Of a stretch of 64,000 bases of DNA, positions 39,981 to 42,526 are shown one piece after another. A program made the position numbers and the translations under genes. Origin of the DNA: Streptomyces sp. ISL-43 (GTDB lineage Bacteria; Actinomycetota; Actinomycetes; Streptomycetales; Streptomycetaceae); the NCBI RefSeq assembly GCF_018614195.1, contig NZ_JAGGOT010000012.1, positions 1-64,000 of the forward strand, given 5' to 3'. How positions within the stretch are numbered: the first letter of the stretch is position 1; each line of letters begins with the position of its first letter. The notes under the pieces are model-generated. The model was not told where the DNA came from. It did not search any database and saw only the letters and a list, made by a program, of their open reading frames with translations.

Positions 39981-40036
39981 GAACGGGTACTGCCCCGCTC
40001 GGCGCTTCAGCCCTTGAGCCGGGGCAGTACCCGTTC
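39981..40036. terminator. Bidirectional hairpin between glcP and the luciferase-like gene
   Basis: 17-bp perfect arms GAACGGGTACTGCCCCG (39981-39997) and CGGGGCAGTACCCGTTC (40020-40036) separated by 22 nt. The right arm lies inside the last codons of the converging flavin-enzyme gene (stop at 40007-40009). Confidence 0.75.
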
Positions 40037-40993
40037 GCACAGCAGCTGCAGGCTCCGCCAGCCCTCGTCGACGGGCATCCCGCCGCAGAGCGGGTGCAGC
40101 ACCAGGTTCCCCGCCTCGCCGGCGCCGCGCGCGTACGCGACCGCCTCGTCCGGGGTGAGGATGCGGTACACGCCCTCCGCCCGGAGCTCCTCCACCGTGT
40201 GCGCGCCCGACCGTACGGCGCTGCGGATGTCTTTGGACTGCCAGGACGCGTACATCCCGGCCTCGTGGAGGAAGCGCTCGCCGTGCTCGGCCCACACCTG
40301 GTCCGGGTCCTCGGCGATGTGCAGCAGCGGGGTCTCGGCCGCCGGCATCATGCAGAAGCCCTCCGTGCCGTACTCCGCGAGCTTCGCGTTGTAGTACGCC
40401 TCCAGCTCGGGCAGGTGCGCGCTGGGGAAGAACGGCAGCCCCAGCCGGGCCGCGCGGCGGGCCGCCGCCTCGGAGCTGCCGCCGACCAGGAGCAGCGGGT
40501 GCGGCTGGGTGAACGGCCGCGGGGTGACCCGTACGGTACGGCCCCGGAACTCGAACGGCTCGCCGGTCCACGCCTTCAGCAGCGTCTCCAGCAGCTCGTC
40601 CTGGAGCTTGCCGCGCCGGCCCCACTCCACGCCGTGCTGCTCGTACTCCTCGGGCCGGTAGCCGATGCCGGCCACCGTGACGAGGCGGCCGCCGCTGAGC
40701 AGGTCGAGGACCGCGATGTCCTCGGCGACCTTCAGGGGGTCGTACAGCGGGCCGATGATCGCCGAGACGGTGACCGCGATCCGGCGGGTGGCGCCGAAGA
40801 CCGCGCCCGCGAAGGCGAAGGGGGAGGGCAGCCAGTTGTTGTCGGTGCCGTGGTGCTCCTCGGTCTGGATGGTGTCGATCCCGCGGTCGTCCGCGTACTT
40901 CGCCATCTCCAGCGCGGCCCTGTAGCGGGCGGAGAGGGTTTCCGGGGTGCCGTTCGGATCGATGAGGTTGAACCGGGCCACGGTGATGGGCAT
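40007..40993 (-). CDS. LLM-class flavin-dependent oxidoreductase
   Basis: 328 residues, bacterial luciferase-like TIM barrel: MPITVARFNLIDPNG, IQTEEHHGTDNNWLPSPFAFAGAVFGATRRIAV, DLLSGGRLVTVAGIGYRPEEYEQHG, PLLLVGGSSEAAARRAARLGLPFF. Uses FMNH2 or F420H2; substrate unknown. Second gene after an NCS1 nucleobase permease (63-nt gap), so a role in heterocycle catabolism is possible. Its Shine-Dalgarno AAGGGGGA is buried in a 13-bp hairpin. F420 use is also possible given cofC in the window. Confidence 0.85.
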   Translation of the reverse strand: MPITVARFNLIDPNGTPETLSARYRAALEMAKYADDRGIDTIQTEEHHGTDNNWLPSPFAFAGAVFGATRRIAVTVSAIIGPLYDPLKVAEDIAVLDLLSGGRLVTVAGIGYRPEEYEQHGVEWGRRGKLQDELLETLLKAWTGEPFEFRGRTVRVTPRPFTQPHPLLLVGGSSEAAARRAARLGLPFFPSAHLPELEAYYNAKLAEYGTEGFCMMPAAETPLLHIAEDPDQVWAEHGERFLHEAGMYASWQSKDIRSAVRSGAHTVEELRAEGVYRILTPDEAVAYARGAGEAGNLVLHPLCGGMPVDEGWRSLQLLCERVLPRLKG

Positions 40994-40999
40994 GGAGAA

Positions 41000-41040
41000 G
41001 TCCCCCTTCGCCGGATGTGGGTGGGCGGGCGAAGGGGGAC
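41000..41040 (-). promoter_or_regulatory. Hairpin sequestering the ribosome-binding site of the LLM gene
   Basis: On the minus-strand transcript, GTCCCCCTTCGCC (41040-41028) pairs perfectly with GGCGAAGGGGGAC (41012-41000) across a 15-nt loop. The 3' arm contains AAGGGGGA, the Shine-Dalgarno 7-8 nt before ATG 40993. The stem would block translation, or act as an attenuator, between permease and enzyme genes. Confidence 0.7.
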
Positions 41041-41056
41041 GTTAGCTGACGTGGCG

Positions 41057-42526
41057 TCAGTTGGACAGGGATCCGGCGGGGGCCGGCTCGACCTCGGCGA
41101 CCTCGGCGACCTCCACCGCTTCCGCGGCCGCCCGCTCCGGGGCCGGCGTGCGCGGGAGGATCGCGTACAGGGCCGCCGAGGTGATGATGCCCGCCGCCCA
41201 GCCCAGGCCGTTCTCGCCGATCCACGTGGTGGCCAGCGGGCCGCTGAACCAGTCGACCTTCGTGAACAGCAGGCCCACCACCAGGGCGAGGCCCCAGGCG
41301 GTCATGGCCTGCCAGGCGAAGCCGCCCTTGTACCAGTAGGCACTGGTCCGCGTGGTGTCCAGGAGCGCGGCGCCGTCGTAGGACGGGCGGCGCAGCATGT
41401 CGACGCCGAAGACGCCGATCCACGCGGAGAAGGCCACGGCCAGCAGCGTCAGGAAGGAGATGAACGAGCCGAAGAAGCTGGTGGCGACCACCATCAGCAG
41501 GAAGCCGAAGACCAGGCTGATGACGGCGTTGACGCTGACCGCCGCCGCGCGCGGGACCTTGATGCCGAGGGTCTGCGCGGTGAAGCCGGCCGAGTACATG
41601 GACATCGAGTTGATGAGCAGCATGCCGATCAGCGCGATCAGCAGGTACGGGACGGCGATCCAGATCGGCAGCAGTTCGCCGATGAAGGAGACCGGGTCCT
41701 GGGCGGTGGCCAGGTCGGGGGTGGCGACCGCCATCACCGCGCCCATCAGCACCATCGGGATCACCACGACGGCCGCGCCGCCGATGGTCGCGCCGACCAT
41801 GCCCCTGGCGGAGGCGGTGCGGGGCAGGTAGCGCGTGAAGTCGGGGCCGGACGGGACCCAGCTGATGCCGCCGGCCGCGATGGTGCCGATGCCCGCGATC
41901 GTCATCGCGGTGGAGCCGGCGGGCTTGGCGAAGACGGCCGACCAGTCGGTCTCGGCGATCAGGTAGCCCAGGACGAGCACGCTGAAGGCGCCGAAGAGGT
42001 ACGTGGACCACTTGGAGCAGACGCGCAGCGCGTTGATGCCGAGCCCGGAGACGAGGAAGGTGCAGCCGACGAAGAAGAGGAGGGTCACGACGATCAGGGC
42101 GGTGTTCTTCTTCACGCCGAAGACCAGGTCGAGGACGGTCAGGACGGCGTAGGCGCCGCTGACCGCGTTGATGGTCTCCCAGCCCCAGCGTGCGACCCAG
42201 ATCAGGGCGCCGGGGAAGAGGTTGCCGCGCTGGCCGAAGACGGCCCGGGAGAGGGCCATGCCGGGGGAGCCGCCGCGCTTGCCCGCGATGGATATGAGCC
42301 CGACGATCCCGTAGGAGACGACGGGCGCGGCGATCGCGACGACGAGCACCTGCCAGAAGTTCAGCTTGTTGAAGATGACCAGGCCGGCGCCCATGGTCAG
42401 CAGCAGCACGCTGATGTTGGCCGCGACCCAGGTCGGGACGAGCTCGCGGACCCGGCCGCGGCGCTCGGCGTCCGGGACGGGCTCCAGGCCGCGTGACTCG
42501 ACGGCGACGGCGGTCTCGGCGGGCAT
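41057..42526 (-). CDS. NCS1-family cytosine/purine/hydantoin-type permease
   Basis: 489 residues with about twelve membrane segments. NCS1 features: RVRELVPTWVAANISVLLLTMGAGLVIF, ALSRAVFGQRGNLFPGALIWVARWGWETINAVSGAYAV, ISWVPSGPDFTRYLPRTAS. The closest general match is CodB-like cytosine permease; exact substrate (cytosine, hydantoin, allantoin, thiamine precursors) cannot be decided. GGAG lies 8 nt upstream of ATG 42526. First gene of a two-gene unit with the LLM enzyme. The C-terminus has an EVAEVAEVEPA low-complexity tail. Confidence 0.88.
   Translation of the reverse strand: MPAETAVAVESRGLEPVPDAERRGRVRELVPTWVAANISVLLLTMGAGLVIFNKLNFWQVLVVAIAAPVVSYGIVGLISIAGKRGGSPGMALSRAVFGQRGNLFPGALIWVARWGWETINAVSGAYAVLTVLDLVFGVKKNTALIVVTLLFFVGCTFLVSGLGINALRVCSKWSTYLFGAFSVLVLGYLIAETDWSAVFAKPAGSTAMTIAGIGTIAAGGISWVPSGPDFTRYLPRTASARGMVGATIGGAAVVVIPMVLMGAVMAVATPDLATAQDPVSFIGELLPIWIAVPYLLIALIGMLLINSMSMYSAGFTAQTLGIKVPRAAAVSVNAVISLVFGFLLMVVATSFFGSFISFLTLLAVAFSAWIGVFGVDMLRRPSYDGAALLDTTRTSAYWYKGGFAWQAMTAWGLALVVGLLFTKVDWFSGPLATTWIGENGLGWAAGIITSAALYAILPRTPAPERAAAEAVEVAEVAEVEPAPAGSLSN

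Follow-up and report, generated by a model that had tools for sequence, protein, structure and literature searches.

How is a gene translated when its ribosome-binding site is folded into a stable stem directly behind another gene on the same strand? Such a case occurs in the window studied here (the whole 64,000-nt stretch of Streptomyces sp. ISL-43 DNA), in which a GC-rich hairpin between a permease gene and an LLM (luciferase-like) oxidoreductase gene covers the Shine-Dalgarno (SD) sequence of the latter. Genes that neighbor each other on one strand are commonly assumed to form operons; the two in this case appear to be kept separate by a compact element, at the level of both RNA and protein. 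The natural gain and loss of either neighbor amounts to a built-in experiment on the purpose of the hairpin. Based on sequence comparison and predicted folds, we think it rather probable that the stem is a one-way insulator, separating neighbors under independent control and closing only on RNA that reads through from the permease.

Gene arrangement at the locus

The coding sequence of the NCS1-type permease (positions 41057 to 42526; Pfam Transp_cyt_pur, E value of 6.7e-92) is followed, after a gap of 63 nt, by the codirectional coding sequence of the LLM oxidoreductase (40007 to 40993; Pfam Bac_luciferase, E value of 1.1e-44), as the first-pass annotation of this DNA had proposed. Both genes and the hairpin lie on the minus strand, which that annotation had left unspecified. 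The permease scored below the cut-off of the NCBIfam ncs1 model, and the LLM protein had 20 NCBIfam matches, every one under its cut-off. We take SCO5579 to be the locus tag tied to this locus. A pyrimidine-oxygenase link for the LLM protein was dropped, since a RutA-type model was absent from its 20 matches, all of which were below cut-off. A strong inverted repeat at positions 39981 to 40036 spans the 3' end of the LLM gene, which is convergent with a sugar transporter gene, and is possibly a two-way terminator.

The permease and LLM genes had been read as a functional pair, which is doubtful in view of their distribution: among 256 Streptomyces genomes, with E value cut-offs of 1e-120 and 1e-150 for gene presence, 78 had both genes, 93 had only the LLM gene, and 42 had only the permease gene. 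Permease matches with internal stop codons were seen in some genomes (G006, G163, and others); these could be alignments that run past the true end of the gene or decaying permease copies.

A hairpin over the Shine-Dalgarno sequence

The perfect 13-bp GC-rich stem was confirmed. Read 5' to 3' on the minus strand, GTCCCCCTTCGCC (41040 to 41028) pairs perfectly with GGCGAAGGGGGAC (41012 to 41000), with G-C pairs at 10 of the 13 positions, around a 15-nt loop (41013 to 41027). The 3' arm, seen in both the sequence and the predicted fold, contains the whole of the LLM SD sequence, AAGGGGGA (41001 to 41008; best anti-SD duplex, -11.5 kcal/mol), and the stem ends 6 nt ahead of the ATG, again as first described. 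A 101-nt coding-sense RNA folded at -39.4 kcal/mol, compared to a mean of -26.3 kcal/mol for shuffled sequences (z score of -4.1; 1 of 200 shuffles as low). When the 5' side of the window's leader was shuffled with the SD retained, none of 40 shuffles matched the depth of SD burial (z score of 6.4).

The 64-kb window held 32 overlapping matches to a perfect 13-bp stem, at about ten places including the SD stem, whereas simulation gave a mean of 0.4 and a maximum of 6 (60 first-order Markov runs). A strong stem by itself is therefore unremarkable in this window, since about nine other places hold perfect stems of at least 13 bp, the one viewed in its gene context being the repeat at a gene end at 39981 to 40036; what is unusual about this hairpin is its overlap with the SD, the adjoining predicted promoter, and its conservation. 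A comparison with Rfam gave no match near a curated cut-off, the three matches obtained being at chance level and all far below. The stem is followed by the tail UUCUCC, with no U-run 3' of the stem, and a terminator scan found no terminator-like site; a canonical intrinsic terminator was dropped on these grounds.

Orthologous loci compared

The comparison covered 228 loci. Besides the window, named genomes supplied the best 80 of 193 loci, and further Streptomyces genomes supplied 147; some species are present in both sets. The LLM gene was found in 171 of the 256 genomes, and 147 loci were used among the matches listed; G139 and G032, at contig ends, were skipped. By class label, 118 loci had the permease directly upstream, 108 did not, and 2 had permease remnants (L031 and L033) and were excluded from the two-class counts. 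Wrongly placed among the 108 was L234, which has the permease just upstream in its genome and was excluded from the energy counts. In 100 of the 108 loci labeled permease-free, ftsY lies divergently upstream of the LLM gene; the remaining eight comprise L234, three loci whose upstream DNA is short, and four in a different context. Three loci (L080, L166, and L220) were counted as permease-free though their upstream DNA is too short for a permease call; the genomes of L166 (G201) and L220 (G219) show no permease. Of the 57 permease-bearing loci in the named-genome set, 56 were aligned with the window, L054 being excluded for a mis-set start.

A predicted promoter and palindrome adjoin the hairpin

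Although the hairpin of the first-pass annotation proved real, that annotation lacked the predicted promoter around a palindrome that adjoins it. Directly 5' of the stem, the minus strand carries CTGTCC (41063 to 41068), the predicted -35 of an LLM promoter, and, after 18 bp, TAACGT (41039 to 41044), a conserved TANNNT motif and the predicted -10; the latter's final two bases also begin the 5' arm (41028 to 41040). Between them lies the palindrome CTGACGN3CGTCAG (CTGACGCCACGTCAG, 41046 to 41060), which is conserved at orthologous loci and is a probable operator. The permease stop codon, at 41059 to 41057 on the minus strand, sits within this palindrome, as the TGA of its first half, and ends 16 nt ahead of the stem; in 68 of the 91 distinct permease-bearing leaders, the window included, the stop is no more than 5 nt from the palindrome start.

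These motifs resemble those of other streptomycetes: a study of S. coelicolor gives TANNNT as the -10, NTGACC as the -35, and 30 to 39 nt as the commonest leader length (PMC4895711), and a study of S. lividans gives TANNNT and TGAC as promoter motifs (PMC6742748). In the window, a start 7 to 10 nt after the -10 (41029 to 41032) would yield a leader of 36 to 39 nt (distance, 45 nt). The start of LLM transcription is thereby predicted to fall in the inner 5' arm, close to the start in the loop or 3' arm that the first-pass annotation had named as counting against its own reading. A generic sigma-70 scan found no promoter-like site here because it requires the E. coli consensus.

The first T, the A, and the last T of the -10 are 100% conserved in both classes (192 distinct sequences), and the -35 T is kept in 100% of 92 permease-bearing and 99% of 100 permease-free distinct sequences. 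Scored at 15 positions, the palindrome and TANNNT motif matched at 13 or more of them in 227 of the 228 Streptomyces loci, whether or not the permease was there; the single miss, L234, carries the palindrome and the -10 too, its LLM start having been wrongly placed. Since the motifs are kept in permease-bearing and permease-free loci alike, they travel with the LLM gene and not with the permease. When palindrome, -10, and 5' arm were combined into a pattern of 30 bases (up to two mismatches), 25 of 200 family genomes matched, 24 within the genus and one, weakly, outside it, this pattern being so strict that it also missed diverged forms within Streptomyces.

SD accessibility with and without the permease

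The cost of opening the SD was calculated for each locus as a free energy, both in read-through RNA and in RNA starting 7 to 10 nt after the -10. The cost in the window was 22.6 kcal/mol for the read-through RNA versus 8.0 to 8.6 kcal/mol for the LLM gene's own RNA. In the predicted fold, read-through RNA from the permease keeps all 13 pairs; a start 7 to 10 nt after the -10 falls inside the 5' arm, and so no more than 5 of the 13 would remain in the own RNA. Among the orthologues, the median cost in read-through RNA was 21.5 kcal/mol with the permease (n = 91 distinct leaders) and 11.4 kcal/mol without it (n = 95), a difference with a P value of 2e-20 in a Mann-Whitney test, which ignores relatedness. 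In the own RNA, the median was 8.4 kcal/mol in both classes (P = 0.37).

The burial first noticed in the window goes far beyond what composition gives and is kept in most permease-bearing loci. Compared to shuffles of the leader, 79 of the 91 distinct permease-bearing leaders had z scores above 2 (median, 4.45), versus 23 of the 95 permease-free leaders (median, 0.52). All 13 positions were paired in 51 of the 91 and 2 of the 95, respectively, and the 5' arm is retained mainly where the permease lies upstream. Exceptions to the association between permease and stem run in both directions; the 12 permease-bearing leaders with z scores of 2 or less were L020, L041, L043, L127, L140, L141, L143, L153, L164, L173, L174, and L177. 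In L153, an intact stem lies upstream of the SD that is used, with 54 nt between the stem and the LLM start and a second SD-like sequence.

Relatedness and covariation

The hairpin tracks the presence of the permease, an association that is supported by regression on a tree and is not significant in a conservative pairs test. The tree was a quick one-gene tree of FtsY DNA, across which permease state changed 22 times. It comprised 194 rows, 192 of them with a class, after removal of 28 rows (of 227) that lacked a usable ftsY and of 5 duplicates. In a Pagel's lambda regression over the 192 rows, the permease added 4.1 kcal/mol to the opening cost in read-through RNA (P = 1.5e-6) and 0.2 kcal/mol in the own RNA (P = 0.45). 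Regression on the z score gave a P value of 8.5e-6, or 4.8e-5 when the window's own clade was removed. In the independent-pairs test (10 supported pairs), 4.7 pairs agreed and 0.6 opposed at a threshold of 16 kcal (median P = 0.22), and thresholds of 13, 15, and 18 and z scores of 2 and 3 gave median P values of 0.38 to 1; the trend was in the expected direction but was nearly gone at the lowest energy threshold (3.4 versus 2.4). Of 14 sister comparisons, 6 gave a clearly higher value for the permease-bearing side and 4 a lower one, the remaining 4 being close.

In the alignment of permease-bearing loci, the arms are conserved and the loop varies in sequence and length, a pattern more in keeping with paired RNA than with an operator in DNA. 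In the covariation analysis proposed by the first-pass annotation, pairing was kept but covariation was weak: 97.0% of cells were paired, compared to 96.8% after shuffling, with 4 double-changed cells. The covariation score was equaled in 7 of 500 shuffles, and reshuffling of whole arms gave 0.902 versus the observed 0.905. The permease-bearing sequences are too conserved for covariation to carry the case.

A proposed one-way insulator

From the computed stem and the SD that it overlaps, the conservation of palindrome and promoter motifs, the association with the permease, and the predicted SD accessibility, we infer a start site, a block to translation, a role at the permease 3' end, and an operator with its regulator. 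The LLM gene would be transcribed from its own promoter at the permease/LLM junction, with the palindromic operator between the -35 and the -10. Its RNA would start inside the 5' arm and would therefore form no full hairpin, leaving the SD open. RNA polymerase arriving from the permease would instead transcribe the whole stem and the SD would be locked in that RNA, so that stray read-through would make no LLM enzyme. The same stem probably serves the permease 3' end as well, through RNA end protection or termination. The earlier expectation that the enzyme would be poorly made is not supported, given that the gene has a conserved predicted promoter of its own, with a predicted start that would remove most of the 5' arm.

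It can be envisioned, more tentatively, that one short segment plays four roles, as a stop codon placed in an operator, a promoter, a terminator or 3'-end stem, and a ribosome-binding site. It would form a one-way gate at which polymerase can start and whose product is silenced when the gate is entered from upstream, and it would persist with the upstream gene and decay, or become a plain terminator, when a neighbor is lost. If true, this gate would be a natural example of how an independently regulated gene is insulated directly behind another.

Permease 3' ends without the LLM gene

Of the 42 permease-only genomes, 40 were examined (G102 and G152 were left out), with LLM absence judged by the cut-offs used; one locus chosen as LLM-less, L304, carries a diverged LLM gene. 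Counting G-U pairs, stems 13 pairs or longer lay within 180 nt past the permease stop at 24 of the 40 loci, compared to 1.5 expected from shuffles, and stems 10 pairs or longer at 35, compared to 14.5. Most of these stems do not seem related to the SD stem. Eight of the LLM-less loci were marked as SD-stem-like by a crude pattern, and, judged by eye, the stems of L302, L305, L311, L312, and L316 are likely remnants of the SD hairpin where the LLM gene has been lost. In L302, the palindrome is retained and TCTTT comes after the derived stem; in L305 and L311, the stem is retained with ATGCCC behind it; and one likely relic stem has been enlarged to 29 pairs. Strong stems at LLM-less permease ends imply that the stem probably serves the permease in its own right, which in turn favors a shared element that would act as both permease 3' end and SD lock in read-through RNA and would be missing from RNA of the LLM promoter; the stem at the intact locus may thus also form the permease 3' end. 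Relic stems that outlast the LLM gene favor a permease-side role over SD locking.

These observations bear on the alternative that survives best, that the stem is only a terminator or 3'-end stabilizer of the permease, its overlap with the SD being an accident of the 63-nt gap and the burial unselected. The association of the stem with the permease agrees with this explanation, as do the excess of long stems at LLM-less loci, a few of them apparently derived from the SD stem, the one derived stem followed by TCTTT, and the lack of any second structure predicted in the window's gap other than a 6-bp palindrome. We nevertheless regard it as rather unlikely, given the absence of a U-run and of a terminator-like site and the 15 of 91 leaders in which the permease stop lies 25 to 123 nt upstream of the palindrome and a strong stem is still on the SD.

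A regulated switch, in which the main LLM mRNA would carry the full hairpin until a ligand, a protein, temperature, or permease translation opened it, would account for an SD burial that is very stable and conserved among permease-bearing loci. It is improbable, however, since the stem is mostly missing where there is no permease, although the LLM gene and its promoter motifs remain. The attenuator opened by permease translation that had been suggested is unsupported and was dropped, since the stop codon precedes the stem by 16 nt in the window and lies still farther upstream in the 15 strong-stem leaders just mentioned. The suggested small-molecule or protein-binding RNA is unsupported too, as the loop is conserved in neither sequence nor length and there is no Rfam family; a riboswitch or other Rfam element was dropped as well. 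A reading of the inverted repeat as a second operator, bound by a protein at the DNA level, is highly improbable and was dropped: the repeat does adjoin the -10, but its loop length differs widely among orthologues while the arms are kept, so that half-site spacing is inconstant, unlike that of the CTGACGN3CGTCAG palindrome, and permease-free loci keep the promoter motifs but far less of the 5' arm.

Comparison with known systems

The proposed insulator is reminiscent of the fold-back control of the IS10 and IS50 transposases, in which the SD is hidden in RNA that enters from outside and is exposed in transcripts that begin at the element's promoter. The same difference between entering and own-promoter RNA is predicted here; unlike IS10 and IS50, however, no mobile element was seen, and the arrangement is conserved at one chromosomal locus beside ftsY. 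According to PMC2988022, the SD hairpin of T4 I-TevI forms only in RNA from upstream promoters, and RNA from an internal promoter that is overlain by an operator is too short for the hairpin. Stable hairpins also sequester the SDs of I-TevII, I-TevIII, segB, Aeh1 mobE, and several genes of T4, including soc and e, with similar arrangements in segB, mobE, and those T4 genes (PMC2988022). The proposed insulator would work in this way: as in I-TevI, a stable hairpin is predicted, from computed folds, to sequester the SD in upstream RNA. Conserved -35 and -10 motifs lie at a fitting place for a putative internal promoter, and the internal start is predicted from them. The present locus differs in that it belongs to a bacterial chromosome and to metabolic genes, with no phage time program, and in that its stem may also serve the 3' end of the upstream gene.

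The element shares with intrinsic terminators a GC-rich stem after a stop codon, and the LLM-less L302 has the derived stem and TCTTT; in the window, unlike in a terminator, there is no U-run, the 3' arm is the SD, and promoter motifs lie just upstream. It shares with translational riboswitches and RNA thermometers an SD within a stem but, unlike them, has no conserved sensing domain, an unconserved loop, and no Rfam match. An internal promoter should be looked for before SD-burying hairpins are called riboswitches or thermometers.

Palindrome copies elsewhere in the genome

In the open-access literature that was searched, we found no description of the palindrome, its regulon, or this locus. 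The window's genome (G000) contains 11 copies of CTGACGN3CGTCAG (L091 to L101, of which L095 is the window's copy), compared to none of a reversed control. These copies mark a candidate catabolic regulon, on which the palindrome would provide a handle in Streptomyces. Genes beside them encode an F420-type LLM protein (above the NCBIfam cut-off), short-chain dehydrogenases, a Pfam amidohydrolase, and, both below cut-offs, a steroid-CoA-ligase-like enzyme and a ring-dioxygenase-type ferredoxin reductase; these neighbors hint at a catabolic role directed at steroid-like or aromatic-like compounds, not pyrimidines.
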